From a virus, in IMG/VR virus record IMGVR_UViG_3300018481_000002, positions 87,199 to 147,685 of that record: a stretch of DNA of 60,487 nt. One strand, written 5' to 3'. Shown here one piece after another: positions 3,184 to 38,000 of this stretch; the stretch's first letter is position 1, and each line of letters opens with the position of its first letter. Made by a program: the position numbers and the translations under genes. Under the pieces are notes generated by a model, which made no database searches, was not told the DNA's origin, and was given only the letters and a program-made list of their open reading frames with translations.

Positions 3184-3957
3184 ATGGGGCACCTGGAGCC
3201 AGAGATTCTCACCGATGAATGGCTTTCCTACAAGGACTCAGGTTCGATCGTCTCCCGCAACCAACTGGTCCTCCACTACACCTCCTTGGTGCGCTACGTC
3301 GCAGCCAAGGTCGGAGGACAGTTGGTTGCCTGGGTCGACCGAGACGACCTGATCTCCTACGGCATGTTCGGCCTTATCGACGCCATCGAAAAGTTCGACC
3401 TCGAAAAGGGCGTCAAGTTCGAGACCTACGCTGTCGTCAGGATCAGGGGAGCGATTCTGGACGAGATCCGGGCCCTGGACTGGGTCCCGCGATCCGTACG
3501 TTCCAAGGCCAGGGAAGTCGAGAAGGCCCAAGCAGAGGTAGAGATGCTCCTCGGTAGGCCCGCTGGCCAGCATGAGGTCGCTGAGTACCTGGGCATCCCC
3601 CTAGAGGAGTACTGGCAGCTGACCAGCGACTCCACCGCCTCCACCATCGAGAGCTACAACCGAGAGATCCTCGTAGAGGGAAACCAAGAGTCTTCCTTCG
3701 ACGTGAGCTTCGACCCAGGGTCTAACCCTGAGGATCTGGCCCAGGTCAAGGAAGTAGTGGAACTCGTTGGGGAGGCGATCAACCAGATGGATCAGATGTC
3801 CAAGACCATTCTCACGCTGTACTACCTGCATGAGATGAAGCTGGCTGAGATCGGCCAGATCTTCGGGGTGACAGAGAGTCGTGTTTGTCAGCTTCAGGGC
3901 CGCGCACTTCAGTCGCTGCGTACGGCCTTCAACCGTTCCGGCCTAGTAGCTGCGTGA
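3184..3957 (+). CDS. RNA polymerase sigma factor, WhiG/FliA type
   Basis: 257 residues, full length for a sigma-28-type factor. Region 2 is clear at about residues 25-95 (LVLHYTSLVRYVAA, DDLISYGMFGLIDAIEKFD, IRGAILDEIRALDWVPRSVR). Region 3 follows, and region 4 ends with a helix-turn-helix (AEIGQIFGVTESRVCQLQ). GVTESRVCQ is characteristic of FliA/WhiG rather than SigB/SigF proteins. In Streptomyces, WhiG starts late sporulation gene expression. Here it probably redirects host polymerase to phage promoters or rewires development. The start has no strong ribosome site, and CATGAT lies close upstream. The next gene overlaps by GTGA. Confidence 0.9.
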   Translation: MGHLEPEILTDEWLSYKDSGSIVSRNQLVLHYTSLVRYVAAKVGGQLVAWVDRDDLISYGMFGLIDAIEKFDLEKGVKFETYAVVRIRGAILDEIRALDWVPRSVRSKAREVEKAQAEVEMLLGRPAGQHEVAEYLGIPLEEYWQLTSDSTASTIESYNREILVEGNQESSFDVSFDPGSNPEDLAQVKEVVELVGEAINQMDQMSKTILTLYYLHEMKLAEIGQIFGVTESRVCQLQGRALQSLRTAFNRSGLVAA

Positions 3958-4091
3958 ACGGTTGCTCCGAGTGCACTCCTGAGAAGACCTGCCGTTGGTG
4001 GTGTCCAGTGCACCTTGAGCACCATGTCGTTGTGACTATGGTGACCCACTGCATCGACACGTGGGAGCCTAGCCTCCGCGAGACCGGTTGA
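3954..4091 (+). CDS. Tiny Cys/His-rich protein coupled to the sigma factor
   Basis: 45 residues from GTG 3954, overlapping the sigma stop by four bases. It contains CSEC, then CRWWCPVHLEHH and another Cys, so metal binding is plausible. The tight coupling suggests a role with the sigma factor, for example as an anti-sigma or cofactor, but no such family is recognised. Its 3' end runs 23 bases into the convergent leftward gene. Confidence 0.55.
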   Translation: MNGCSECTPEKTCRWWCPVHLEHHVVVTMVTHCIDTWEPSLRETG

Positions 4092-6789: not shown

Positions 6790-6865
6790 GACAGCCTCCT
6801 AGGGCCTAGTTCCTAGGGAGAGCCTACAGCCGGACACCCCCCCAGCCGATGACCAGTCGGAGGTG

Positions 6866-7039
6866 ATGACGGTGATTCTGGTGATCTCGTTCATCTTGTT
6901 GTTGTTGGCGGGTCTCTGCTTCGCCCTTGCGGCTGCGCAGAAGAATCTCGGGACGGTCAACCTGATCGCCCTGGGCCTGCTTTTCTGGGTGGCGGTTCCG
7001 TTCATCCAGGTCTGCCAACGCATGGCAGACAAGTTCTGA
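6866..7039 (+). CDS. 57-residue two-helix membrane protein
   Basis: GGAGG lies just before ATG 6866; GTG 6872 would have better spacing and removes only two residues. Two hydrophobic helices are plain (VISFILLLLAGLCFALAAA and LIALGLLFWVAVPFIQVC) with a short polar loop between. No family is recognised. It heads a three-gene rightward unit that ends at the terminator at 7461. Confidence 0.6.
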   Translation: MTVILVISFILLLLAGLCFALAAAQKNLGTVNLIALGLLFWVAVPFIQVCQRMADKF

Positions 7040-7572: not shown

Positions 7573-7809
7573 ATGCGCGTATCGAAGTACCCACAGCAGC
7601 GAGACGATGTTCTCGCGGCCATCAGGGATGCACAGCTTCGACATGGACTCGCTCCGTCAGTGCGGGACCTGGCGGCTCAGTTCGGAGTTGGTGTCGCCAC
7701 GATGCACTCCTACTTGCAGAAGCTTGCTGAAGAAGGGGTAGTGGAGTGGTCAAAGGGCAGGCACCGTTCCTTGAGATGCACCCTTCAGGGTTTCCAGGAG
7801 CAGAAGTAG
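7573..7809 (+). CDS. LexA-type winged-helix DNA-binding protein
   Basis: 78 residues after GCAGGAGG. The whole protein matches the N-terminal DNA-binding domain of LexA: QQRDDVLAAIRDAQLRHG, then LAPSVRDLAAQFGVGVATMH as helix-turn-helix, then the wing (EEGVVEWSKGRHRSLRC). There is no peptidase domain, so it cannot self-cleave like LexA. Its position just before RusA and the terminase genes suggests a local transcription regulator. It could also compete with host LexA, which is speculation. Confidence 0.8.
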   Translation: MRVSKYPQQRDDVLAAIRDAQLRHGLAPSVRDLAAQFGVGVATMHSYLQKLAEEGVVEWSKGRHRSLRCTLQGFQEQK

Positions 7810-8297
7810 TCGGGGAGTCCATCTTCCTGAAGTTCTTCATCCCTGCCCTGACTGACCCCAAGGTGAAGATCCAGAACGAGGTCATGGCCAAGGAGCGGCC
7901 TCAGGCTCGTGTCGTTGTTCCCAAGGGTGGGGGGCGACCGTTCCCGCAGTTCTACACGCCACCGAAGACGCAGGCGTGGGAGGCCCATGTCGGCGAGCAG
8001 GCGCTCCTCCAGCTCAGGTCGGTTGATGCTGATTTCACGCTTCCGATCCACGACAAGCGGATTCTGGCGAGTGTCCGTTTCAACCTGACCAGGCCAGTGT
8101 CCTACCCGAAGACCGTGATTCACGCTGTCAAGAAGCCCGACATCGACAACCTGGTGAAGGCGATCCTGGACGGGATTGTGGCCGCGAGGATCATCGAAGA
8201 TGACAACCTGATCACCGACCTGGTGACCATCAAGAGGTACGCCGATGGGGCCCACCCCTCTGGTGTTGAGGTCGAGTTGACCTGTTTGGCTCTCTAG
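7776..8297 (+). CDS. rusA: RusA-like Holliday junction resolvase
   Basis: About 173 residues from ATG 7776; GTG 7746 is possible and has a better GAAGGGG site, but gives a larger overlap with the LexA-like gene. The start of the fold (FLKFFIPALTDPKV) and the core KKPDIDNLVKAILDGI followed by EDDNLITDLVTIKRYA are diagnostic for RusA, with the metal-binding Asp residues present. RusA dimers cut four-way junctions. Placed before the terminase genes, it probably removes branches from concatemers before packaging. Confidence 0.88.
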   Translation: MHPSGFPGAEVVGESIFLKFFIPALTDPKVKIQNEVMAKERPQARVVVPKGGGRPFPQFYTPPKTQAWEAHVGEQALLQLRSVDADFTLPIHDKRILASVRFNLTRPVSYPKTVIHAVKKPDIDNLVKAILDGIVAARIIEDDNLITDLVTIKRYADGAHPSGVEVELTCLAL

Positions 8298-9611: not shown

Positions 9612-11255
9612 ATGGCAATCCTCGCTGATCTCACCGAAGAGGAGCGGTACCTCTTCGCGATCCTTCAGGACCAGTCGGGCATCGACCAGGCTGAGTTCTC
9701 TTGGAAGGACGAGACCCAGGACGACGGAGTGTTCCGCTGTTGGGACTATCAGTACCCCTGGTACCGCACCCGCTCGAAGCACCAGATCGACCAGTGTGGA
9801 CGTGCCATCGGCAAGTCGGTGGGGATCCAGATGCGGGCGTGGGCGTTCGCGTTCACGAACCCTGACCAGGAGATGCTGATCACCGCCCCTGAGATGATCC
9901 ACCTCGACCCGGTGACCAAGCACATCGAAGATCGGATCCTTGGGTCTCGCCTCTCGGCTGAGTTCCTCAAGAAGTCGGGTATCTCCAACGGCATCAAGCA
10001 CCGACCGTTCGAAGTGTCCTTCCGGAACGGTGCGTCGATCAAGGGCCGCATCCCGCAGAAGGACGGTCGTGGCGTCAAGGGTATGCACCCCAAGAAGCTG
10101 GAGATGGACGAGGCTCAGGACTATCCGGAGCCAGGTTGGGTGGAGCTCATCGAAACCCTGAAGCAGGGCGATGAGGAGTCGACGTGGCGTGCCCATGGCG
10201 TGTCTCGTGGTGTTCGTGACCGCTACTACAAGCAGACCCAGCAGGGTTCAGGTTGGTTCGTTCACCGCATCACGGCGATGCACCGTCCCGACTGGACGGA
10301 CGCCGAGCGGAAGCAGAAGGCTGAGGACTACGGGTCCCGTGACCACCCGGACTACCGTCGAAACATCCTCGGCCTCCACGGTGACGCGTCTTCCGCGCTG
10401 TTCGTGCTGACCCGGCTGATGGCGTGCGTCGACCAGAACCCTGGTTCCTACTTCAACGCCACCGAGTACCACAAGGCCCCGAACGGTGTCCGCATCACCG
10501 AGGAGAAGCTGAACGACACGAAGCTTCCGATCGAGGAGCTGCTCGACTTCCCCGCACAGCACCGGGTGTACGAGCGGACCTGGGTGGGGATGGACGTCGG
10601 TATGACGAACCACCCCACGGAGATCCTGATCTTCGCGGAGGAGTACCCCTCCCGCACGGGTGGCAAGCAGCCTGACGTTCCAGACGTCCGTCTGAAGTGC
10701 ATCAGCCGCCTCCACCTGGAGCGCATCTCCAGCCCGGATCAGCGTCGGGTGCTGGAAGCGATTTGGGATTTCTACCGTCCCCAAGCGATTTCCATGGACC
10801 GCACCGGTCTCGGTCTGCCGATCTACCAGGAGATCCAGGCGTCTGCCCCTCCGGGCATGGTCGCCGCGATGCGGGCCTACAACTTCTCGGAGAAGATCAT
10901 CATCGGGTACGAGGACGTCGAGGAAGACGACTACTGGCGTGACCCGGACCAGCCGTATGGCGTGGAGATCAAGGCGAACGTGTTGGAGTACTCCTCTGAC
11001 ATGCTCCGCGAGATGGTCGACCTCCGTCAGATCCTGCTTCCGTGGGACACGGACATGATCCGAGAGTTCCAGGGCCAGACGTACGTGGTCAACAAGAGCA
11101 ACACCGACGCGTACGGCAAGAAGAAGTTCAACCAGGGCAAGTTCCACGCTCTCGACGCGGCGCGCATGGCGATCCTGGGCTACCGCCAGGAGAAGATCAA
11201 CGCGATGCAACAGCTGGTTCAGGATGAGCCGGTCTACGACATGTTCCTGGTCTGA
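9612..11255 (+). CDS. terL: Terminase large subunit
   Basis: 547 residues, normal for the family. The ATPase has a Walker A-like GRAIGKSVG near residue 64 and a Walker B with MDEAQDYP near 165. The nuclease half begins at VGMDVGMTNHP near 326, with further acidic residues (MDRTGLG near 396) and a late ALDAARMA. It pumps DNA into proheads and cuts concatemers. The start has no clear ribosome site; CTGAC-GCCT-GTCAG lies just upstream. It follows the two small-subunit candidates and precedes head genes, as expected. Confidence 0.93.
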   Translation: MAILADLTEEERYLFAILQDQSGIDQAEFSWKDETQDDGVFRCWDYQYPWYRTRSKHQIDQCGRAIGKSVGIQMRAWAFAFTNPDQEMLITAPEMIHLDPVTKHIEDRILGSRLSAEFLKKSGISNGIKHRPFEVSFRNGASIKGRIPQKDGRGVKGMHPKKLEMDEAQDYPEPGWVELIETLKQGDEESTWRAHGVSRGVRDRYYKQTQQGSGWFVHRITAMHRPDWTDAERKQKAEDYGSRDHPDYRRNILGLHGDASSALFVLTRLMACVDQNPGSYFNATEYHKAPNGVRITEEKLNDTKLPIEELLDFPAQHRVYERTWVGMDVGMTNHPTEILIFAEEYPSRTGGKQPDVPDVRLKCISRLHLERISSPDQRRVLEAIWDFYRPQAISMDRTGLGLPIYQEIQASAPPGMVAAMRAYNFSEKIIIGYEDVEEDDYWRDPDQPYGVEIKANVLEYSSDMLREMVDLRQILLPWDTDMIREFQGQTYVVNKSNTDAYGKKKFNQGKFHALDAARMAILGYRQEKINAMQQLVQDEPVYDMFLV

Positions 11256-12686: not shown

Positions 12687-12831
12687 CCCCAACGCTTGGG
12701 TTTGTGACTGCGAACACGCGGCCAACGCCCGGAGGTTGACTCAGGACACCGTGAAGATCCACAAGGAACTAGGCCGCTGCCCCAGCTGCGGCTCCACTTT
12801 CGTCGAACGATCTGGACAAGCCGATGACTGA
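12661..12831 (+). CDS. 56-residue zinc-ribbon protein before portal
   Basis: GTG 12661 lies six bases after AAGGAGAGG and overlaps the previous gene by 26 bases. The peptide has CDCEH in the first half and CPSCGSTF in the second, a four-ligand zinc ribbon. Its stop is eight bases inside the portal gene. Zinc ribbons of this size are common in phage operons; a DNA-binding role is only inference. Confidence 0.6.
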   Translation: MLDRLGRNDPNAWVCDCEHAANARRLTQDTVKIHKELGRCPSCGSTFVERSGQADD

Positions 12832-14770
12832 CTACTACGACGACGATGACTTCGACCTCGACGGGGAGATCATCGATGTCGAGCCCGTTGACGAGTTCGA
12901 TGTGACCGAAGAGGGCTCCTTCACCGACGCCCACTACGGAGAGGTGTCCACAACCACCCGGCCCTCCATCCACTACATCAATGAATCTGGCATGCCCGAC
13001 GATGTGGTCTTCCGCCACCTCCGTAGCCGAGGATTCGAGAAGGCCGCGATCTCTCAGATCGAGAAGTGGTCCCAGTCGCTGAACTCCCCTCAGACCACAC
13101 AGACGCTGGACATGTTCAACCGGTCCCGCTGGCAGAACAACGACGTCCACGTACACGCCGTCATGAGCCGTGTCGCCTGGGCAGTCGAGAACGACGAGAC
13201 CCTCTCTACCCTCGCGGACGTGGTTGAGGGGCTCATGTGGCAGAAGTGCCGTTTCGAACTGATCGACTCTGACGAACAGGACATGTGGAACCAGTGGGCC
13301 GCTGACATCAACCTGGACAAGATGCTCCGGGAGATGGGCCGTGAAGAGTTCAAGCTGTCCCAGTTCTACGTCGGTCTCTGGTGGGGCACCCGCACGTACT
13401 CCGTCCAGGAAGAGCGCATCGATGACCGCATCGATGAATTCGAGCGGGAGCGCAAGAAGAAGGAGTACGAGGAGAAGGTCGAGGAACGCGAGGCGTTCAT
13501 CGCCGCCAACAAGGGCAATCCCGAGTTCGTCGCACCCCCCGAGCTGGCAGAACCGAACCTTGAGGGTCCTGGCCGTGGCAACCGCAAGCGGAAGAAGAAG
13601 TTCAAGGTCAAGGTCCCCACGGACTACACGATCTTCGACCCCACGAAGGTGCTCCCCGTTGGGACGCTCATGTTCGGACGGGAGCGGTTCGCGTACATCG
13701 CCACCCGTGGCGAAGATGAAGCGTTCGCGTCGGTCATGAACGGTGACACCGCAGACGACACCGTTCTACAGCTGATCGAGCGCAAGTACGAGCCGAACGA
13801 GATGGACAAGACGGCGTGTGCAGACCTCGGAGTCGACCACAACCGCCTGTGGCTGTTCCGCAAGGACGCCGTGTTCCGGCACTCCATGACCAGGGCCCAG
13901 TACGAGCGGTACTCCCCGGTCCGGTTGAAGACGATCCTGCCCCTCCTGGAGATGAAGCAGCACCTCAGGGCTTCCGACCGGGCTAGCCTGATCGGCAACA
14001 CGAACTTCATCGTGGTCATCACGAAGGGCTCCGACCGGCTCCCGGCGAAGCCCGCCGAGATCGCGAACCTCCAGGAACAAGCCAAGGTCATCGCCCGGCT
14101 GCCCGTCCTGATCGGTGACCACCGGTTGAAGGTGGAGATCGTGTCTCCGAGCACCGACAACACCCTGATCGATTCACGGCATCAGGTTTTGGACGCCCGT
14201 CTGGTTTTCGCGGCGCTCCGAACCTTCAGCCCGGTGACGCAGGGTGGCAACAGCTCCGGCGCAGGCGTGTCAGAGATGTCAAGGGTTGTGGCACAGGGCC
14301 TTGAGTCCAGACGCCACATGATCATGAGGTCCATCGAGAAGAACATCTTCAGGCAGGTCCTGGACCGCAACGAGGATGTTATCGACGAGTTCCCCAACTT
14401 GGCGTTCACGCCGAAGCGGATCACCTTGGAGTTCAACAACGACATCATGAACGGCATCCTCAAGCTGCGTGACCGTGGAGACATCTCCCGGGAGACAACG
14501 CTGGAGGAGCTTGACTTCGACCAGGACACCGAGGTGTTGCGTCGTGGTCGGGAGCGGGTGCTGTACGACCGGGTGTTCGAATCGACCACTCCGCACAGCT
14601 CCCCGACCTCCAACCCCTACGGCGCTCCTGGTCAGCTACCACCTGGCGGCAATCAGAACGTCCAAGGGAATGTGGGTCCCGCTGGTCAGCCACGCACCGA
14701 AGGTGGCCGTCCTCCAGGAGCCCAGGACAAGAAGCCGCGTGCAACCCCGACCCCAACGAGCCGAAAGTAA
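12824..14770 (+). CDS. Portal protein
   Basis: 648 residues. An acidic N-terminus (YYDDDDFDLDGEIIDVEPVD) precedes the portal body: RSRWQNNDVHVHAVMSRVAW, WGTRTYSV, a basic loop with GRGNRKRKKKFKVKV, then DRASLIGNTNFIVVITKG, and a C-terminal helical domain with a Pro/Gly-rich tail. It forms the dodecameric ring at one capsid vertex for packaging and tail joining. Size, order after TerL and these motifs support the call. The low-complexity tail may contact scaffold or remain disordered. Confidence 0.9.
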   Translation: MTDYYDDDDFDLDGEIIDVEPVDEFDVTEEGSFTDAHYGEVSTTTRPSIHYINESGMPDDVVFRHLRSRGFEKAAISQIEKWSQSLNSPQTTQTLDMFNRSRWQNNDVHVHAVMSRVAWAVENDETLSTLADVVEGLMWQKCRFELIDSDEQDMWNQWAADINLDKMLREMGREEFKLSQFYVGLWWGTRTYSVQEERIDDRIDEFERERKKKEYEEKVEEREAFIAANKGNPEFVAPPELAEPNLEGPGRGNRKRKKKFKVKVPTDYTIFDPTKVLPVGTLMFGRERFAYIATRGEDEAFASVMNGDTADDTVLQLIERKYEPNEMDKTACADLGVDHNRLWLFRKDAVFRHSMTRAQYERYSPVRLKTILPLLEMKQHLRASDRASLIGNTNFIVVITKGSDRLPAKPAEIANLQEQAKVIARLPVLIGDHRLKVEIVSPSTDNTLIDSRHQVLDARLVFAALRTFSPVTQGGNSSGAGVSEMSRVVAQGLESRRHMIMRSIEKNIFRQVLDRNEDVIDEFPNLAFTPKRITLEFNNDIMNGILKLRDRGDISRETTLEELDFDQDTEVLRRGRERVLYDRVFESTTPHSSPTSNPYGAPGQLPPGGNQNVQGNVGPAGQPRTEGGRPPGAQDKKPRATPTPTSRK

Positions 14771-19919: not shown

Positions 19920-19996
<77 letters not shown>

Positions 19997-20001
19997 AGAC
20001 G

Positions 20002-20053
20002 AGGCGAGGCCGGGCAGGGCCTGGCACCGTGGGGCACGGCAAGGCAGGGGTTC
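20002..20053 (+). repeat. GGC pentamer array, third block
   Basis: Directly after the tRNA the sequence reads GAGGC GAGGC CGGGC AGGGC CTGGC ACCGT GGGGC ACGGC AAGGC: GGC every five bases in the same orientation as the right arm. Confidence 0.8.
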
Positions 20054-20107
20054 CCCACCCGCCCTAACAGACGACGCTCCTATCTCGACTACCTAGTAGG
20101 AGGCGAC

Positions 20108-20314
20108 ATGAGGGGACTCTTCCCTGAGAAGGACCTGCCCAGAGCGTTGGGTGTGAAGGTCTTCGGTGAGCCCAAGGCGCAGGCTCAGATCAACAGCCCG
20201 GACAAGGCGGGTCCGACCATCGCCAGGGACAAGACGTGCTGGTGTGGCCGTCCGTATCCGCATGACTGGCTGGGCCAGGAGGACGGTGCCGCGCATCCGA
20301 GGTACCCGGACTGA
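20108..20314 (+). CDS. Small protein with CWC motif
   Basis: 68 residues after TAGGAGG. A Lys/Pro-rich first part (FPEKDLPRALGVKVFGEPK) leads to KTCWCGRPYPHDW, a possible metal-binding turn, then an acidic-polar end. I do not recognise it. It lies between two repeat blocks and is transcribed with the island. Confidence 0.6.
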   Translation: MRGLFPEKDLPRALGVKVFGEPKAQAQINSPDKAGPTIARDKTCWCGRPYPHDWLGQEDGAAHPRYPD

Positions 20315-20328
20315 TTTCCCTCGAACAC

Positions 20329-20358
20329 TTGCACGAGGTGGTTTGTAGCGTCTACAGT
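20329..20358 (+). promoter_or_regulatory. Promoter candidate before the RAMP-like gene
   Basis: TTGCAC, 18 bases, TACAGT, preceded by TCGAACAC. Same architecture and same upstream sequence as the promoter at 19751, which makes both more credible. Confidence 0.6.
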
Positions 20359-20368
20359 GCACACACCA

Positions 20369-20432
20369 TGGCATGGCAGAGGCTCGGCTAAGCGCGGCAC
20401 TGCACGGCCAGGCAGAGGCACGGCAAGGCAAC
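20369..20432 (+). repeat. GGC pentamer array, fourth block
   Basis: ATGGC ATGGC, one six-base slip, then TCGGC TAAGC GCGGC ACTGC ACGGC CAGGC, another slip, ACGGC AAGGC. It is the leader between the promoter at 20329 and the TTG-started gene, so it is probably transcribed. Confidence 0.75.
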
Positions 20433-20462
20433 AACCACACATGAAGCCATTGGAGGCTCAAC

Positions 20463-21044
20463 TTGAAGGTAACCATCGAGATTGACGGCACCCAGCCGCT
20501 TCTCATGCACGCAGACACCCTCGCGGACCCGCTGGACCCGCTGACCAAGGAGTTCAAGCGACTCTCCGGGAAGCGGTCCAAGACCGACGAGGACCACGAG
20601 GCCATGGCGGAGAAGGAGTTCCTCGCCAGCCTCTACCTCGATGACGGCGGCGAGATCTGCATCCCCGCAGCCAACATCAAGAAGTGCCTCATCGAGGGAG
20701 GCCGCATCACCAAGTCCGGGGCCAAGATCGAACGTGGCCTCACGCTCCTGGGCATCGACTTCGTCCTGAAGCACACCGGTCCGGCACTCCCGGCTGACCT
20801 GTACCAGGACCCGAAGTTCGTGGACAGGCGTTCCGTGAAGGTCGGCACCGCCCGCACCATGCGTGTCCGTCCCCGCTTCAACGACTGGTCCCTGCGAGTG
20901 GAGTGCGACATCGACCCCGCCGTGTGTTCCATCGATGACCTGAAGGACATCGCGACCAACGCCGGTTCCCTGGTGGGTCTCGGTGACCACCGCAAGATCG
21001 GCGGATACGGACGTTTCGTGGCGAAGGTGAGGAAGAACCCGTGA
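20463..21044 (+). CDS. Conserved phage protein with RAMP-like motifs
   Basis: 193 residues from TTG 20463, seven bases after GGAGG; the ATG at 20441 is out of frame. Visible parts: an N-terminal strand with PLLMHADTLADP, a charged helix region, ICIPAANIKKCLIEGG, RRSVKVGTARTMRVRPRF, and a C-terminal GLGDHRKIGGYGRFVA. The IPA..IK segment and the final Gly-rich loop resemble RAMP/Cas7-type RRM proteins. Homologues exist in other phages as unknowns, as I recall. Overlaps the next gene by GTGA. RNA binding is speculation. Confidence 0.6.
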   Translation: MKVTIEIDGTQPLLMHADTLADPLDPLTKEFKRLSGKRSKTDEDHEAMAEKEFLASLYLDDGGEICIPAANIKKCLIEGGRITKSGAKIERGLTLLGIDFVLKHTGPALPADLYQDPKFVDRRSVKVGTARTMRVRPRFNDWSLRVECDIDPAVCSIDDLKDIATNAGSLVGLGDHRKIGGYGRFVAKVRKNP

Positions 21045-21553
21045 GGCCGTTCGCGCCGAAGGGTGAGCAGCCTGAGTGGCGGATGCTCTACGACCTGGTT
21101 ACGGGTTCGGCTGTAGACACGGTGTTCCCGTACGACGACTTCGACCGGGCGCTTGGTCGGGACTTCCGGGAGAACCGGACCCCCCTGGCCCGTGTACAGA
21201 AGGAACTCCTGCGGGAGGACAAGCGGGTCCTGGTCAACGTACGCGGCGTCGGGTACCGGATCGCTCAGGCTCGGGAGCACGGCGAACTGGCTGTGGGTCA
21301 GCGGCAGCGTGCCCGTCGTGCCGTGGACAAGGGTGTTCAGATCGTTGCTGGCGCTGACCAGTCCTCTCTGACCCCGAAGGAACGGCAGCGGCTGACGGAG
21401 ATCGAGGTCAACCTGCGTGCTCAGGCGAACATGCTTCGCCGGACTGAGGCTCGGGTGGCCGTTTTGGAGAAGTCCGCGAAGCATTCGGACGACCGTCTGG
21501 ACATGCTGCTGGCTGAACTGAAGCGGAAGGGCTTGGTCGAGACGATCGACTAA
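21041..21553 (+). CDS. Winged-helix protein with coiled coil
   Basis: 170 residues from GTG 21041. Residues about 12-75 look like a winged helix (WRMLYDLVTGSAVDTVFPYD, DFDRALGRDFRENRTPLARV, then a wing with VNVRGVGYRIAQAREH), and residues 105-165 are a coiled coil (LTEIEVNLRAQANMLRRTEA). Similar proteins occur in many actinophages. DNA binding is likely; it is co-translated with the RAMP-like gene. Confidence 0.7.
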   Translation: MRPFAPKGEQPEWRMLYDLVTGSAVDTVFPYDDFDRALGRDFRENRTPLARVQKELLREDKRVLVNVRGVGYRIAQAREHGELAVGQRQRARRAVDKGVQIVAGADQSSLTPKERQRLTEIEVNLRAQANMLRRTEARVAVLEKSAKHSDDRLDMLLAELKRKGLVETID

Positions 21554-21562
21554 CCTGAGACC

Positions 21563-21656
21563 GAGGGTCTGTGCCCACGGCAGTAGACGGAACCCGAGCT
21601 TGCTACGGTCTTGCTCGGTGTCCGCTGCCGGGGGGCTCACGTGGGCACAGACCCTC
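21563..21656 (+). ncRNA. Long hairpin RNA candidate
   Basis: GAGGGTCTGTGCCCACG pairs perfectly with CGTGGGCACAGACCCTC (17 bp). Inside, GCAG and CGGA pair with TCCG and CTGC around a small bulge, and CCGAGC pairs with GCTCGG near the tip. The stem closes four bases before the tRNA-like RNA at 21661. A U tract is lacking, so it is not a simple terminator. A linked ncRNA or a processing structure is more likely. Confidence 0.6.
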
Positions 21657-21660
21657 ACTC

Positions 21661-21739
21661 GGGGCAGGATGGGTTCGACAGCGACGTAAGTCCGCATGCG
21701 GGACGCCGCTGGACCAGGGTTCGACTCCCTGCTGCTCCA
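21661..21739 (+). ncRNA. tmRNA-like tRNA domain without message domain
   Basis: Seven-pair acceptor GGGGCAG/CTGCTCC with one G-U pair; T arm CAGGG-TTCGACT-CCCTG; a 5' side reading GGATGGGTTCGACAGCG that matches the tmRNA D-loop consensus; and, in place of D and anticodon arms, a helix CAGCGACGT/ACGCCGCTG (one mismatch) like tmRNA P2, capped by CCGCATGCGG. Both tmRNA ends are present within 79 bases, so there is no tag ORF or pseudoknot. CCA is not encoded. A Y-RNA-type tRNA mimic is an alternative. Confidence 0.6.
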
Positions 21740-21895
21740 CGGGAGGAGATGCCCGAGAAGGAACCTGGTGTCCAGTCTGGGTCGCTCCCACGCTGAAACA
21801 CGCTGAACCAGGATCCATCCAGAGGGAAAGGCGCAGGTTCTAGACTCCCTGTGCTGGATACGCTGGGGGTCTACTGGCCAGCTCTCCTCTCTCCT
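21740..21895 (+). other. Structured spacer between RNAs
   Basis: No gene is supported. CCTGGT/ACCAGG encloses a 30-40 base loop, and ATCCA/TGGAT encloses GCAGG-TTCTAGA-CTCCCTG, which echoes a T arm. It may hold a further decayed RNA or be only a precursor spacer of tRNA-Lys. Confidence 0.4.
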
Positions 21896-21968
21896 GCGCC
21901 TTTAGCTCAATTGGTAGAGCAGCTGGCTCTTAACCAGCGTGTTCGGGGTTCGAGTCCCCGAAGGCGTA
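21896..21968 (+). tRNA. tRNA-Lys (CTT anticodon)
   Basis: Acceptor GCGCCTT/AAGGCGT (G1-U72), D arm GCTC/GAGC, anticodon stem GCTGG-CTCTTAA-CCAGC, T arm CGGGG-TTCGAGT-CCCCG, discriminator A; CCA is not encoded. AAG is the favoured Lys codon in this genome, which fits a supporting role in translation. Confidence 0.95.
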
Positions 21969-21969
21969 C

Positions 21970-22104
21970 GTGAACGAAATCCAGAAGTTTTGGCATCGAT
22001 GGTTCGGGATCGGATGGCCCGACCCTGAGGACATCCACGCCTTGGAACGTGACCTAAGATCCGTTGCCTGGCCAGAAGACGACGACCAGAGGCCCACCGA
22101 CTGA
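21970..22104 (+). CDS. 44-residue protein starting at the tRNA end
   Basis: GTG 21970 begins two bases after tRNA-Lys, and the only ribosome-site-like sequence (GAAGG) is the 3' acceptor strand of that tRNA. The peptide is Trp-rich and acidic at the end (FWHRWFGIGWPDPEDIHALE, then PEDDDQRPTD). Not recognised. It may be expressed only from unprocessed precursor, or may not be translated at all. Confidence 0.45.
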   Translation: MNEIQKFWHRWFGIGWPDPEDIHALERDLRSVAWPEDDDQRPTD

Positions 22105-22116
22105 ACGGAGTCACTC

Positions 22117-22524
22117 ATGGGCTCCGTACTTGTATCCAGCACTTGTCACTACTGCGGGGACAAGGCCACCACTGACGACCACGTGGTTCCCCGGTCCCTG
22201 CTGCCCAAGCCCCAGTCCCTCCTGCCGTACTGGTTCCGCGCCATGAACGTAGTCCCGGCCTGCGCCCCCTGTAACGGTGCCAAGGCCAACCACCGCTCCG
22301 ACTGCCACTGCACCCAGTGCGTACGCGCCTGGGGCTCCGCTGCCGCGCTCTACGGCATCGTTGAGCCTGAGCCGGTGTCCGTGTTGGAACTGCGCCGCGA
22401 ACTGGTCCGTGTGCAGAACCGCAACCGCAAGCGGCAGCGAAACAACGAGAGCAGACGAAGGCGTGTGCGCGAGGAATACAAGAGACGGTTCGGGTCCTAC
22501 CCGCCCTCTCGCGCGCGCCAGTAG
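22117..22524 (+). CDS. HNH endonuclease
   Basis: 135 residues. CHYCG starts a zinc pair completed by CAPC; the catalytic core is DDHVVPRSL ... NVVPACAPCNGAKANHR, the standard HNH pattern. A second CHCTQC follows, and the C-terminus is strongly basic (NRNRKRQRNNESRRRRVREE). HNH proteins act in packaging or as homing enzymes. Here it lies between two tRNAs, away from the terminase, which favours a mobile or homing role. The last ten bases overlap tRNA-Arg. Confidence 0.85.
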   Translation: MGSVLVSSTCHYCGDKATTDDHVVPRSLLPKPQSLLPYWFRAMNVVPACAPCNGAKANHRSDCHCTQCVRAWGSAAALYGIVEPEPVSVLELRRELVRVQNRNRKRQRNNESRRRRVREEYKRRFGSYPPSRARQ

Positions 22525-22587
22525 CTCAGCGGACAGAGCAACCGCCTTCTAAGCGGATGGTCGCGGGTTCAATCCCCGCCTGGCGTA
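22515..22587 (+). tRNA. tRNA-Arg (TCT anticodon)
   Basis: Acceptor GCGCCAG/CTGGCGT, D arm GCTC/GAGC, anticodon arm ACCGC-CTTCTAA-GCGGA with an unpaired first position, T arm GCGGG-TTCAATC-CCCGC, discriminator A, no CCA encoded. It reads AGA, a rare codon in GC-rich hosts. It overlaps the HNH stop on one side and the leftward gene on the other. Confidence 0.93.
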
Positions 22588-22793
22588 CCTCCGGGCTCGA
22601 TCATCACAGACTCCCAACGACCTGCCTTGATCAGCCCTACCCGTCGCTTGCGGATCTCTCCCTCTTCGTTCTCGTACTCCTCTGTGAGCACGATGTTGCC
22701 GTCCTCGTCTTCGCGCCAACCATCGGCCTCACCGAAGACGTCGATGGCCCCTTCGCTCAGATCGTTCGCTGTGTAGCGCACCCGGACTCCCAT
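22569..22793 (-). CDS. Small leftward protein overlapping tRNA-Arg
   Basis: 74 residues from ATG 22793 on the minus strand. Composition is protein-like (YTANDLSEGAIDVFGEADGW, IVLTEEYENEEGEIRKRRVG), with no known domain. The last 19 bases are antisense to the 3' end of tRNA-Arg. GCCGATAC, close to the WhiG-type -10 sequence GCCGATAA, lies seven bases before the start, but no good -35 is present. Confidence 0.55.
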   Translation of the reverse strand: MGVRVRYTANDLSEGAIDVFGEADGWREDEDGNIVLTEEYENEEGEIRKRRVGLIKAGRWESVMIEPGGTPGGD

Positions 22794-28645: not shown

Positions 28646-29764
28646 ATGAAGCACCCCATCTATGCCGTGATCGGCGTCGTGTTGTCCACGCTGCTCTGCG
28701 TCGTAGGCTTCTCCCAAGCCACGTCAGCAAAGCCAGGTGACACGAAGGCGGCGAGGAGACCGTCGCCTACGAGAACCGTGACGGTGACAGCTACCGTCCC
28801 CGGTCCGACCGTGACAGCAACAGTGACCGCGACAGCTACGGTTACTGCGACTGTCACCGCGACTGTGACTGCGTCGCCGTCCCCCACGGCCACCCAGACG
28901 ACCCCCACGTCCACTCCTACTTCGACCCCCACGAGTCCGGGGACGGCGTTCCCCAACTTGGACACGACAGGTGTTCCAGCTGGATGGGTTCCCACCTCGA
29001 CTCGGACGACCAACCTGGTCATCAGCACCCCAGGGACAGTTGTGACGGATGTCCGTTTGGACAACAGCGCCAACATCATCGTGAACGCCGCGAATGTCAC
29101 CTTGCGGCGGGTCCATCTGCGTGGCGGCTACATCGAGAACTTCGCGGGGTCCACCTGTCACAACGGGCTACTGATCGAAGACTCCACCCTTGAGCCACCG
29201 GTCGGCCAGAGTGCCTACCCGGTCGAACGCTGGCGGATCGGAACAGGTGGCTACACCGCTCGTGGTGTCGAGCTGATCAACGCCCCAGACGGCTACCGGG
29301 TGGGTGGCGACTCTGGTGGATGTGGTCCAGTGACCATCGAGAACTCCTTCATCTCGGTCAAGCCTCCCCAGACCTGTGGGGACTGGCACGGTGACGGCAT
29401 CCAGGGCTACGACGGACCCCACGTGAACGTCCTGAACACGACCATCGACATGGACGCAACCGGGTGTGGTGGCACCGCGCCGTTCTTCGTTCCTTCAGGG
29501 CAGGGCAACACCTCGGCCACCGTCGACCGGCTTCTGATCGCAGGACCCAACGGGAACTATTCGTTCCGCATGGGCGTGCCAGGAACTGTGAACCACCTGC
29601 GGATCGAGAACAACGGTTGGTCCTACGGTCCGTTGGATGTGAAGTGCTCGGTCATCCCTTCGTGGGAGGCGAAGATCGTTGGTCCGGTAGATCGTACGGC
29701 GGGCGGCTATGCCGAACCTGCCACGGTGCGAGACCAGCCGTGCAACACGGAGGGCGGTTCCTGA
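28646..29764 (+). CDS. Secreted beta-helix protein, accessory
   Basis: 372 residues from ATG 28646. Residues 1-29 are a clear signal peptide (KHPIYAVIGVVLSTLLCVVG, then SQATSAK). Residues about 35-100 are a Thr/Val/Ala/Pro repeat linker (TVTATVTATATVTATV). The rest reads as a right-handed parallel beta-helix (VVTDVRLDNSANIIVNAANV, TLRRVHLRGGYIEN, VTIENSFI) like pectate-lyase-fold proteins. No ribosome site precedes the ATG, and TCTAAT lies about 30 bases upstream. It is isolated by terminators on both sides. Surface change or secreted enzyme are options; catalytic residues are not identified. Confidence 0.75.
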   Translation: MKHPIYAVIGVVLSTLLCVVGFSQATSAKPGDTKAARRPSPTRTVTVTATVPGPTVTATVTATATVTATVTATVTASPSPTATQTTPTSTPTSTPTSPGTAFPNLDTTGVPAGWVPTSTRTTNLVISTPGTVVTDVRLDNSANIIVNAANVTLRRVHLRGGYIENFAGSTCHNGLLIEDSTLEPPVGQSAYPVERWRIGTGGYTARGVELINAPDGYRVGGDSGGCGPVTIENSFISVKPPQTCGDWHGDGIQGYDGPHVNVLNTTIDMDATGCGGTAPFFVPSGQGNTSATVDRLLIAGPNGNYSFRMGVPGTVNHLRIENNGWSYGPLDVKCSVIPSWEAKIVGPVDRTAGGYAEPATVRDQPCNTEGGS

Positions 29765-29772
29765 TCCAACCT

Positions 29773-32049: not shown

Positions 32050-35000
32050 GTGGCCAGTAAGGACGACTTCTTCGTCACTTTCGGCTCGAACGCCAAGGAG
32101 TGGGCGGCGGGTCTTGAGGCTCAGCTGAAGCCTGCCCGCAAGTCTGTGCAGAACCTTCAGAACCTGCTTGACGCTGCCACGAAGAGCGCTGGTGGCATCA
32201 CTGAGGAGATGTCCCGGGCTCTGGGTCACTCTCTCCCGAAGGACACCAGGCCGCCTCCGGCGACACGGACTCACGTCACCGCTGCTCAGGGGCTTGGGGA
32301 GCTGACGAACGAGGTCGCTGCTGTTGTTGCCGCGTTGAAGACGATCCCTGCGTCGGTTGCCAACGTGAAGCGGAGCCTCACCCAGCACGCGAATGACCTG
32401 GACTCCAACAACCGTGTCCAGCAGCGGCAGGGTGCTGGTGGGTTGTTCCAGCAGGGCAAGGTTTCGTCTGCTGAGAATGCGGTCAACAACTCCTTGAACC
32501 GTCTTCTCAAGGGCGGCATCGACGTCAACATTCCTGACCCTGCACGGCTTGTCCCGCAAATGAACATCCGTTCAGTTGGGATGGACGCGATCCAGAAGTC
32601 TCAGATCGACCGGATCGTGAAGGCCATCGAACGGCAGACCAAGGACCTGACGAAGGCCTTGAAGAACGTGAAGGTCACCGACGGGCCCACGGGCGGAGGT
32701 GGCGGTGGCGGTACTGCCATCGCTGAGACTGCTCCGCTGAAGAACAAGACTGGGAAGAAGCCTTCCACGAAGAAGCTCCCCGAGGTGGTCGAGGCCGAGA
32801 AGGCTTTGGACGCCCGTCGAAAGGAGCTGGTCGACCTTGAGAAGAAGATCGTCGGGCTCACCACGGCGATCTCGGGTGGAGCGAAGGTTGACTCGTCTGA
32901 GTTGGACAAGCTGAAGGCTCAGCGCACCGCGAAGGCGAAGGAAGTTGCTGCGCTGGAGCGGCTGGACACCACCATCACCAGGGGTGACCAGAAGAAGGCA
33001 CGTAGGGCCCAGGCCGCTGCTGAACGTGCAGCGCAAGAGCAGAAGCTGAACGAGGCCCGTGAGCGGGGTCTGTCGGCGTTCAACACGTTGATGGACCCGA
33101 ACTTCGGTATCGGTCAGGTCGGCAAGGGGAAGGGTCTCCTCAAGGGGAAAGACCTTCGGTACATGGCCGATGTCATGTCCACGGTTGGGACACCCGTCAG
33201 TTACGGCAAGAAGACCACCAACGACCAGCTGGTGGAGCGTCTCCTGGCTGGCCGCGCGTCTCACATCCAGGCTTACGGGTCAGTTCCGCCTGACCAGCTG
33301 ACTGGCCGCATCAAGGGGAAGCCTGACCAGATCTCCAAGGCGGTGGTGAAGCTCTTCAACGACATCGAGTCCGCCATCGAGTTGGCTGATGAGCAGATCA
33401 ACGCGAAGGCGATCACCGCGCTGAACACGGCGACTGGTGGTGGACGTGCCAGCGGTATCGGCAAGTCCCGCACCGAGTACGGTGCCGCGTTCTTCGATGA
33501 CGCGTTGCCGTTGTCCCGTGGTGCCGGTGGTCTCACCTCTGAGGTGGACGCTGCACGGAACATCCTGAAGCAGCTGCCTGACATCACCGGGTTCGCCACG
33601 GAGAACCTGCGGCGCAAGAAGTTCGACCCGTACAGCCCGGAGATGATGTCTGGGGTCGAGGGTGGCGGCACTAGGGCCACTGCGTTCCGGCTGCTGATCC
33701 GGGCGTTGCGTGATGAGACGACGAGGATCGACGAGCTCGTCGACACCTACGCGGACTTGAAGCGGTCCATCGATGCGAACGACCCGAAGTCGATCCAGTC
33801 GTACCTGAACCGTTTCGACGCCCGTCGAGAAGAGGGACGTCTCAAGGCAACTGACACCCCGGAGGCTGAGCAGGACGCGATCCGGCGTCTGGCAGCGAAC
33901 CAGCGTGCCATCAACGACATCGAGCGTCAGTATGGCGACTTGTTCAGCGACCCGAAGTTCCTTGAGGGTCGGGAGCGCCGTCGTGATTCCCGCATGGAGT
34001 ATGAGGAGCGGCAGAACCAGGGTCGCTACCAGCTCACCGACTATGACGCTATCCAGCAGGCGTACGGCCAGGCTGTCGTCGGTCTCAGGAACGCCATCGG
34101 TTCCCGCGAGACCATCTCCAACCTTCCTGGTCTGCGATACCACGAGCGTGGCGAGTTCCAGGGCCGTCTGAGCCCGAGGGACCCCCGTGACCGGGCCATC
34201 TCCAACGAAGACCTGAAGACGCTGAACAGCACGTTCTCCCAGTTCCAACGGTCGGCCAGAACTGTCCTGACTGGCGTGAAGAAGGGCGAGACCCTCGACA
34301 CCAAGGGTCTTGCCCAGGCCATGGACTTCATGGAGACGTCCGCGAACAACTTCGCGAACAAGCTGTTCAGCCTGTTCGGTACTGGTCCCACCGTTGAGGG
34401 GCTGATCGGTCAGAAGCCGACCAACGAGACTGTCATCGCTGACGAGACTGAGCGTCTCGCCACCTTGGACAAGTTGGAGCAAGAGCGCGCTCGGAAGATG
34501 AAGGCTGCTCCTGCGGAGAAGTTGGCTCGGGCGGAGTACACGGAGGCGCAGACCAAGGAGCAACTCGCTGCCGCGAAGAAGCGGGAGCGTGAGGTTTCGA
34601 AGCGTCTGACTGAGACGAGTGCTCTGGCTGCTGCGAGCTACGCGCAGCTGACCCAGGCGCAGAAGACTGAGTACGACAAGCATGTGGCGTTGGCTGTTGC
34701 GTTGGAGCAGCAGGCTGATGCGGTTCGTCAGCAGATCTCTGCGCAGAGCAACATCACCAAGCAGGTCAACCCGCAGGGGAAGCTTGAGTACTCCCCGAAC
34801 GAGCTTCCTCCGAGCGCCACCAAGGAGCAGCAGCTTGAGAGAGAGGTCACCAGCGACCTGATCCAGCAGTACGCGCGGCTGAAGGGTGAGGCTGGCGCTG
34901 CTCGCGCGGCTGCTGGTCGCGCAGGTGCGACGGTAACTACGACATCCGTCGAAACCCGGAAGATGACTGCTGCCGAGCGGAAGTACGCCGCGAAGCTGGA

Positions 35001-38000
35001 AGAGTCCATCTCCGCCTTGGAGGCTCGCGACCGAGCCTTGCAGGACGAGGCAAACGCTGTCCGGTACACCAAGCTGCCTTCTGGTGTGATGCCCGGAACT
35101 GAAGGGCAACCCATCAGTCGGCTCCGTGGGCGTAACGCCGCAGCGGACGTTCTGGGTTACGAGCTTGGTACTACAGGCGCTCAAGATGCTGCCAAGAGCC
35201 AACGACAGTTCCGTGCCGAGGCAGCGAAGGTCGAACAGGAACTGCACAAGCTTCAGCGTGAACTCGCTACGTTCAACGCCCAGTTCGACGCCAAGCCTGA
35301 CAACGTCAAGATCGACCGAAAGGCTGGCCTGTACCCCGGGCTGGTGGGTGACCTGGAAGGTGAGGCCAAGGACGCCGCTGAGGCGGTTGACCTTCTCACC
35401 AAGGAACTGCCGGGTCTGGAGAAGGCGACCGTCAACGCCCGGAACGCTGTCGCCCGCGCCGAGAAGGCCAAGTACGCCACCCCAGAGGCACGGTTCGACT
35501 ACAGGACCCAGTTGTACGCGGAGCGCGACAAGCTTCGGAAGGACCAGCCGTACACGAAGGCTGACATCTCTAAGTACCAGTCTGAGTTCGACGCTCTCGG
35601 GTTCAGCAACCAGCAGCGTGGGGCCCTGAGGGGTCAGATCACGAAGGCTGAGAAGAAGGGCGACACTGAGAGGGCCACTGCTCTGCGTGAGCAGTTGCGG
35701 ATCAGGGAGTCTGAGGTCGCTGCTGCCAGGGCGATCCTGGATCAGGCCATCAAGACCCGTGCCCGTCTTGGGCAGATCGACGCCGAGATCAAGAAGACCC
35801 TCTCCATGGATGAGGGCACGTACAAGGGCGACGAGAAGGTCGAGACTCGCACCTCCAACCGTCAGGTGGAGGATACAAACAAGCGTCTGATTGCTGCGAA
35901 GAAGAGGGAGATCGCTGCTGCGGAGGAGAACCGCAAGGCGCTCCTCCAGATCCGTGCAGACGAGAAGGCTCTCCCGAAGGGCGAGAAGCTTGCCCCTGAG
36001 GTGTCGGCTGACCGGAAGGCACGCCAGCAGCAGCCTTGGACCAAGGAGCAGCTCCGGACGATGCGTCGAGAGTTGCGTGACTTGGAGCGCGGCGGTGACG
36101 GCAGCGGGTTCGGGGGCGGTCCTGGTGGCACCGGTACGGCTGGTCGTGGCCCTGGTGGCAGCGACGGGTCGTTCAACATCCTGCGTCAGATCTTGAACCG
36201 GTTGAACGGGATCCACGCCACTCTCCGCAGTGGGTTGGGTAGCGGCACTACCAGGTCGAACGAGCCGACTAGCGCGTTCACTGGTGCTGGTGTCCGCAAG
36301 ACCGCTTCCCCTGAGGAGTTGGCGGCGGCGAAGAGCGACGACGAGGCGACGCGGTTGCGTGCTATCGCTGAGCAGCGTGCCCGTGCGCAGCGGTTTGGTG
36401 GTGCCTCTTCTGCTGAGGTCAAGGCAGCCAACGATGAGCACGCGAAGCGGATCAAGATCACCCGCGACCAGTACCGCGAGAGTCTCCGTCTGGCGCAGGC
36501 GATGGCGACTGTGTCCAAGGAGACCCGCAAGGAAGCTGAGGAACTGCACCGTCTGAACTTGGCTGGTGCAGACAACGCGACCATCGCGGCCCAGCAGGTG
36601 AGGGTCTACAACTCGGTCCAGCGGGATCTTCAGCCTCAGGATCTGCCGTTGACTGCCCGACGTGGCGTGGCGGGCACCATCATCAAGGGTGCCCAGCCTC
36701 GGGTCACTGACAACGAGATCGTTGACATCGAGAAGGCCGCCCAGTCCATGACTGGGTTCCGTGACGTGGGTGCCTCTGCTGCGGAGAACTTCCAGGACGG
36801 GTTCGCCCAGATCTTCCCCGGCAAGTCGTTCTGGTCTCGTGTCATCAACACGACGGGTACGTTCATCGTCCGTAACTTCGCTGCCGGTCTGGTCTTCGGT
36901 CTGACCAACGCGCTTCAGCAGGTGTTGGACCAGGCCATTCAGACTGAGGCGACATTCATCCGGGTGTCAGCGGCGTTGGAGTCCACCAACACTGAAGTTG
37001 GGGGCTTGCGTGGCGAGCTTCAGGCCATCTCCACTGACTACGGTGTCGCCCTCAACGACGTGTACACCACCGCTGCTGGGTTGGCTGGTCTCTTCACCGA
37101 CACTACCGAGCTGGCGGGAGCCACCCGTGTTGTCGCCCAGTTGCAGACCATTTCCGGTGGAGCCCTCAACGCTACGGAAGCTATGGGTGTCTTGGCGTCG
37201 ACACTCTCCGCGTTCCAAGCGCTCCCGGGTGATGACGTTGGAGCCAACCTTCTCCCTCAGGGCATTGAGGGCATGGAACGCGTCGCTGACGTTCTGACGG
37301 TCATCCAGAACCGGTTGGGTACCAACATTGAGGTCACCGCCGAGGGCGTCTCGCGTATGTCTGGTTTGGCCCGGCAGATGAACCTCTCCCTTGAGGAGAC
37401 CGCAGTCTTCACTGCTCAAATTTCGAAGCAGACCAACCAGACCGGTGCGGCAGCTGGTGAGCAGTTCTCTCGTATCCTCGGCGCGCTGTCCACGGGTCGT
37501 GGTCGCGGTGCAGTTGTCGAGGCGATCGGGCCCCAGGCTGAGGAGGCTCTGGCCGCTTCCGACTATGGACAGGTGTTTAGACTCATCATCTCCGGATGGG
37601 ATGACCTGTCCGACGCTCAGAAGCGCAACCTGACGGTGTCTCTTGCCGGGCAGCGACAGGCGGCCGCCTTCAACGCTTTGGTCAACAACGAAACTGCGGT
37701 CCTCAACACGTTGACCCACGCAGAGAACGCTAGTGGTGAAGCCACCGACCGTATGGCCAAGTTGATGGCCACCCTGAACAAGCAGATCGACGTCCTGGGC
37801 ACTAACCTCCAAAACCTGGCATCGAACCTGATCCGGTCTGGTCTGCTGAACTTCCTGGGCATTGTTCTGAAGCTCGCCAACGCGGTCTTCGGCACCATCA
37901 ACAACGGTCTGACTGCGATGAACGACTTCGCAGACAACAACGCCTTCGTCGGGTTCCTGCGCGACACCATCACCACGATGCTCGGATTCGCGGTGGCAGC

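Follow-up and report, generated by a model that had tools for sequence, protein, structure and literature searches.

The uncultured phage analysed here encodes a complete sigma factor of the FliA/WhiG family, which we read, with a probability of roughly 0.55, as a working sigma-28-type factor owned by the phage for its late genes, no longer subject to the anti-sigma control of the host and perhaps short-lived. According to this reading, the sigma would steer the RNA polymerase of the host towards phage promoters whose -10 box is of the GCCGAT type, and the late block would be switched on (small membrane genes, a LexA-type regulator, RusA, terminase, head and tail genes). Changed residues where WhiG binds c-di-GMP and RsiG would allow the host brake to be evaded, and an Ala-Ala tail may give the sigma a short lifetime in this phage and three relatives. 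What the sequences show directly is the family of the sigma, its completeness, its recurrence in the phage group, its position, the kept -10-reading residues and the lost K/G/R triad; the late timing, the promoter use, the freedom from RsiG and the proteolysis are what we infer from sequence comparisons. Since the promoter-reading parts are kept and the residues of the c-di-GMP brake are lost, the sigma probably drives phage genes and not host sporulation. An earlier note on this DNA had proposed two roles, the use of late phage promoters or an action on host development and spores, and the former is the better one.

Identity and phylogeny of the phage sigma factor

The window, i.e., the whole stretch of DNA that was analysed, makes up the final 60,487 bases of an IMG/VR virus record of 147,685 bases, and the phage is referred to as G000. 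The features of the sigma gene are the following:

3184..3957, + strand: FliA/WhiG-family sigma factor, 257 aa, regions 2, 3 and 4 complete (profile matches, AlphaFold model, Foldseek)
3292..3309, + strand: codons R37-(Y-V-A)-A41-K42, the WhiG K57/G61/R62 positions, altered (alignment; roles from PMC8325347)
3439..3492, + strand: codons R86-R103 with R86, D93, R96 and R103, all kept (alignment)
3943..3954, + strand: C-terminal Leu-Val-Ala-Ala, ssrA-like, a putative ClpXP degron (sequence)

The open reading frame starts with ATG at 3184 and stops with TGA at 3957. The description of a phage-encoded, full-length sigma with a GVTESRVCQ motif in region 4 was borne out. The Pfam models for regions 2 (Sigma70_r2, 5e-16), 3 (6e-7) and 4 (1.5e-15) all match above their curated cut-offs, region 1.1 is absent, and the motif occupies residues 228-236. 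Family searches of the record identified a tape measure, an endolysin, RusA, a terminase-like protein and recombination genes, along with other phage families. The label "WhiG/FliA-type" held at the level of the family and failed at the level of the ortholog: the NCBIfam FliA_WhiG model (TIGR02479) is passed with 226.2 bits (cut-off 189.6), whereas the NCBI WhiG equivalog NF004935 gives 258.2 bits, below its cut-off of 343. By its sequence the protein is thus a FliA/WhiG family member, and its status as a WhiG ortholog is not supported by the equivalog score. Among solved structures, the top match in a sequence search was Streptomyces venezuelae WhiG (6pfv/6pfj, E 4e-62), followed by FliA proteins. 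An AlphaFold model built with six phage sequences as input contains the sigma2, sigma3 and sigma4 helices at a mean pLDDT of 73, with low values confined to the linker between regions 3 and 4 and a pTM of 0.43 that leaves the domain arrangement uncertain; its best crystal-structure match in Foldseek was again WhiG 6pfv (E 1e-12).

Compared to known systems, the G000 sigma shares with the WhiG proteins of S. venezuelae (6pfv/6pfj) and R. radiotolerans the family, regions 2-3-4, the -10-reading residues and the GVTESRV helix of region 4. Unlike actinobacterial WhiG, it is phage-borne, falls below the equivalog cut-off, has an Ala-Ala tail and lacks the K57/G61/R62 contacts, and no RsiG-motif protein was seen in G000. 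With FliA/sigma-28 (E. coli 6pmi, Aquifex 1rp3) it has the TIGR02479 subfamily and identical -10 residues in common; however, it scores nearer to WhiG, and flagellar genes were not recognised among the scanned phage proteins.

In a careful tree of 67 rows under a mixture model, the split between FliA/WhiG and SigB/SigF received a support of 100/100. A quick tree, its outgroup including sigma-70 and Bacillus-phage sigmas, gave the FliA/WhiG grouping a support of 100 and placed the two Bacillus-phage sigmas on the SigB/sigma-70 side. The phylogenetic check suggested in the earlier note therefore puts the protein on the FliA/WhiG side, and the grouping with SigB/SigF or general phage sigmas that would have spoken against it did not arise. 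The sigmas of G000 and of two related phages, G001 and G004, form a clade (100/97) with 52-55% identity among them, and the best bacterial hits found for this group are at most 47% identical. A placement with Streptomyces WhiG is not what the tree gives, the phage clade being separate from it, although the forced union is not formally rejected (p-AU 0.135). Neither is a position of the phage sigmas as the first branch within the family, the topology test with the core and SigB/SigF sequences addressing this position and not SigB membership. The sigma gene differences between G000 and G001/G004 fall mostly in codon position 3. The G000 sigma is thus, judging from these comparisons, no recent copy of a host gene and belongs with the sigmas of the two related phages.

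It could be argued that the gene was lately captured from a host and is carried as cargo, without phage function. Capture does occur in the group, as the sigma of another viral locus, L180, is sister to an actinobacterial sigma (100/95), which suggests a separate capture. The copies of G000, G001 and G004, however, are intact, syntenic and biased toward changes at third codon positions, and they resemble one another more than the best bacterial hits found, so we consider cargo very improbable. A claim of several independent captures was dropped, since the test did not reject a single clade uniting the L180 sigma with the G000 group (p-AU 0.09).

Promoter-reading residues and c-di-GMP contacts

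The residues R86, D93, R96 and R103 of the G000 sigma correspond to R74, D81, R84 and R91 of E. coli FliA, which have a role in -10 recognition. This R/D/R/R set is found in 80/80 bacterial and 27/29 viral sigmas, and the remaining two viral proteins have D replaced by E. At the other site of interest, S. venezuelae WhiG residues K57, G61 and R62 contact c-di-GMP within the RsiG complex (PMC8325347). The K/G/R triad is present in 27 of 30 Actinomycetota sigmas and in 0 of 11 phages of the terminase family, with R37, A41 and K42 in its place in G000. The Actinomycetota sigmas were sampled independently of the phage, the triad columns were set beforehand by the published structure, and the IMG/VR loci L202-L216 (distant, fragmentary or unvetted) were excluded from the main residue test. 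Among the 98 columns that are at least 90% conserved in Actinomycetota, K57, G61 and R62 are the three least retained in the 11 phages. Loss of the triad gave 4.5e-5 against random column triples and 1.2e-4 against a Bacillota/Myxococcota control, values to be read with the relatedness of the phage sequences in mind, as the draws are not independent. When 60 sigmas of Bacillota and Myxococcota serve as the reference, the two most phage-specific losses are those of R62 and K57, and G61 ranks 16th.

R62 is conserved at 90% in the Bacillota/Myxococcota set and K57 is also fairly conserved there, and the RsiG study lists no Bacillota or Myxococcota among the RsiG carriers (PMC8325347), so these two residues have some role besides c-di-GMP. 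Moreover, the changes in G000, K57 to R and R62 to K, are mild. What can safely be said is that the phages have dropped contacts under a host-specific constraint while promoter reading was retained. The RsiG c-di-GMP motif was found in none of G000, G001 and G004, and a search of the relative G007 returned one chance-like match. The pattern of kept and lost residues predicts that GCCGATAA promoters are read and that the c-di-GMP-RsiG grip is absent. If the prediction is true, viral escape from transcription control by a second messenger becomes directly testable, and the protein would offer a natural, constitutively active WhiG variant for studying the switch. A broader generalization, put forward tentatively, would be that phages of Actinomycetota took over WhiG/FliA, keep its promoter reading and have repeatedly lost the c-di-GMP/RsiG contacts, such that late transcription on a host developmental promoter class escapes the c-di-GMP-armed anti-sigma.

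The phage late sigma factors T4 gp55 and SPO1 gp33/gp34 are strongly diverged from host sigmas. They are like the mode proposed for G000 in that host RNA polymerase is redirected to late genes; unlike them, the G000 sigma retains the whole FliA/WhiG architecture and the -10 residues. It also resembles the sporulation-like sigmas of Bacillota phages (SPO1-like, Wbeta, Goe3), being a phage-encoded alternative sigma akin to a developmental sigma of the host, but those are SigF/G-like and occur in Bacillota phages only (PMC9429907). Indeed, sporulation-like (developmental) phage sigmas have been reported only for phages of Bacillota, or endospore formers (PMC9429907), and a search of the open-access literature returned no paper joining "phage-encoded", "sigma factor" and "whiG".

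Gene order and candidate promoters from the sigma to the late genes

Downstream of the sigma gene, the window contains the following features:

3954..4091, + strand: Cys-rich 45-aa open reading frame, C-x2-C-x5-C-x3-C-P-V-H, GTG start, 4-nt GTGA overlap with the sigma stop
6825..6852, + strand: candidate promoter TACA-N16-GCCGATGA, 19 nt upstream of the gene at 6872, the first of the block leading into the late genes
6872..7039, + strand: gene of a small hydrophobic protein, opening the rightward block; conserved in G001 and G007
7573..7809, + strand: 78-aa DNA-binding domain of the LexA winged-helix type, stand-alone, conserved in G001, G004 and G007
7746..8297, + strand: RusA-like Holliday junction resolvase (family match)
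9612..11255, + strand: terminase large subunit, family marker of the phage group, 41% to the GX15bay terminase, phrog_5909 in homologs
12824..14770, + strand: probable portal protein (from the GX15bay head gene order)

G000, G001 and G004 agree in gene order from the sigma up to the head genes, with the sigma located upstream of the terminase on the same strand at 5.7, 7.7 and 5.0 kb, respectively. A terminase search yielded 57 related viral loci, and a FliA/WhiG search of the whole related records identified full sigmas in G001, G004, G007, G017/G025 and G020, whereas the G024 copy is split. Further viral contigs came from a search with the sigma alignment, and of these L180, L184, L187, L190 and L192 share the terminase family at 40-55% identity. 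The WhiG/FliA-type sigma recurs across this group of uncultured phages, the sigma being of actinobacterial type. In L180, L187 and L192 it again lies upstream of the terminase on the same strand (1.3, 1.9 and 9.5 kb), and in L184 it follows the terminase at a distance of some 10 bp. The two genes are distant from each other in the records of G007 and G020, and they lie on opposite strands in G024 and L190. The G024 sigma (L070/L078, G024:12782-13442) is broken across two frames, by a frameshift or a sequencing error. Relatives without the sigma, mostly fragments, gave no alternative region 4 match, and single-sequence searches for extra viral orthologs closer to the sigmas of G000, G001, G004 and G007 found none.

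The earlier note had also proposed a search for promoters of the form TAAA-N15-GCCGATAA. Across the whole G000 genome the bipartite consensus, searched as TAAA-N14-16-GCCGATAA, is not enriched (3 sites vs 7.3 for permuted motifs), and enrichment is confined to the -10 half and to the block from the sigma to the terminase. Exact GCCGATAA in the upstream regions of all sigma-bearing phages is not enriched either (2 vs 1.0). In the sense-strand intergenic DNA from the sigma to the terminase of G000, G001 and G004, GCCGAT occurs 6 times vs 1.2 for permuted hexamers (rank 1/180). All six sites read GCCGATRR, the antisense strand of this block lacks GCCGATRR, and 0.32 sites would be expected, the RR suffix having been picked post hoc (6 vs 1.2 without it). 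No TAAA or common -35 box accompanies these sites. The candidate -10 box in G000, GCCGATGA at 6845, has a counterpart, GCCGATAG, before the orthologous gene of G001. At the orthologous place in G001 (132,431-132,459) and G004 (29,736-29,765, minus strand), at the start of the block preceding the late genes, an exact GCCGATAA is followed 7-8 nt on by the perfect palindrome GAGACGGCCGTCTC, which is absent from G000. The LexA-type gene directly precedes the RusA gene, and its product is a possible operator-binding regulator, judging from its domain; that it reads the palindrome GAGACGGCCGTCTC is a guess. In the locus L029, GCCGATAA is followed by a different 14-bp palindrome, GTGTTGGCCAACAC.

Several points weigh against the late-gene reading, namely the lack of a -35 box, the lack of genome-wide enrichment, the mildness of the K/R swaps and the differing arrangement of sigma and terminase in G007, G020, G024 and L190. 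Some of these fit a sigma that serves other phage promoters, of middle genes or of an altered class, with the GCCGATRR boxes as coincidence, as the -10 halves stand alone and a long distance separates sigma and terminase in G007 and G020. Nevertheless, every -10-reading residue is retained, the boxes hold the top rank among 180 permutations and occur on the sense strand alone, and the sigma is located beside the late genes; we regard such a role as distinctly unlikely.

Another explanation is that the phage sigma mimics host WhiG/FliA and turns the host GCCGATAA regulon (sporulation, flagella, type IV pili) on or off, the phage spreading via spores or motile cells. Host reprogramming is conceivable because -10 reading is unchanged, and host promoters of the GCCGATAA class should be recognised. 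The loss of the RsiG/c-di-GMP contacts would leave the sigma constitutively active, the bipartite consensus is not enriched in the phage itself, and a precedent exists in the Bacillota phage sigmas that change sporulation (PMC9429907). Against this, the sigma is kept beside the terminase across diverse phages, as fits a core phage regulator, the GCCGATRR boxes sit between the two genes, and nothing ties the host to sporulating or motile species. We thus consider host reprogramming unlikely and retain the late-gene reading. The link to Streptomyces and sporulation drawn in the earlier note found no support, and in the unicellular Rubrobacter the WhiG-RsiG switch governs type IV pili and not sporulation (PMC8325347). 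Such sigmas are also widespread in Actinomycetota, with WhiG/FliA-type members in 87 of 119 sampled genomes.

C-terminal tail, Cys-rich neighbour and carrier phage

The sigmas of four phages all end in Ala-Ala (G000 LVAA, G001 VAAA, G004 LAAA, G007 RLAA), a feature that was spotted post hoc. Ala-Ala ends are found in 2/248 proteins of G000, 1/234 of G001, 2/88 of G004 and 6/265 of G007 (0.4-2.3%), and in 1 of 170 bacterial FliA/WhiG sigmas. In the ssrA tag, the terminal Ala-Ala-COO- is the main ClpXP determinant (PMC7652416). Based on the resemblance of the tails, the sigmas of G000 and its three relatives are possibly short-lived.

The tiny Cys-rich gene said to overlap the sigma gene is real, and an ortholog in G001 (47% over 32 aa) likewise overlaps its sigma stop, as TTGA. 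The coupling is thus seen in G000 and G001, and not in G004. Profile searches returned no family match for the protein, and a role as sigma partner or anti-sigma would be a guess.

With respect to the carrier, a nucleotide search of G000 against known phages matched the tRNA genes alone, and within GenBank its terminase is closest to that of Caudovirales GX15bay from mangrove soil (41%). In the GenBank phage collection, the best sigma matches are unannotated gut contigs (at most 42%) and Bacillus and cyanobacterial sigmas, and no Streptomyces phage appears in the organism tally among the matches listed (60 of 97 records). A prophage-based host search of 296 genomes from the phylum to which G037 belongs found no real match to the G000 terminase. 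An actinobacterial host is suggested by the sigma's family and its best bacterial matches (Actinomycetota, up to 47%).

A second G000 protein with a sigma-70 region 4 is encoded outside the window, at record positions 569-1141 (L002:569-1141, 190 aa). Its Sigma70_r4_2 match is above the cut-off (29.5 bits) and its region 2 is unmatched, and the identical region 4 search saw no counterpart in G001 or G007. Elsewhere outside the window (L002-L005), Ku and an ATP-dependent DNA ligase were matched, a possible end-joining pair, as well as a tyrosine recombinase, MoxR/VWA-type ATPase proteins, RuvB and a GH16 glycosidase, all of these being family matches not assigned to individual genes. Within the structural gene region of the window, three tRNA genes (Met, Lys, Arg) are located at 19920-22589. 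The tape measure protein (32050-41286) has 3,078 aa and, provided that the usual length rule applies, would imply a long tail.
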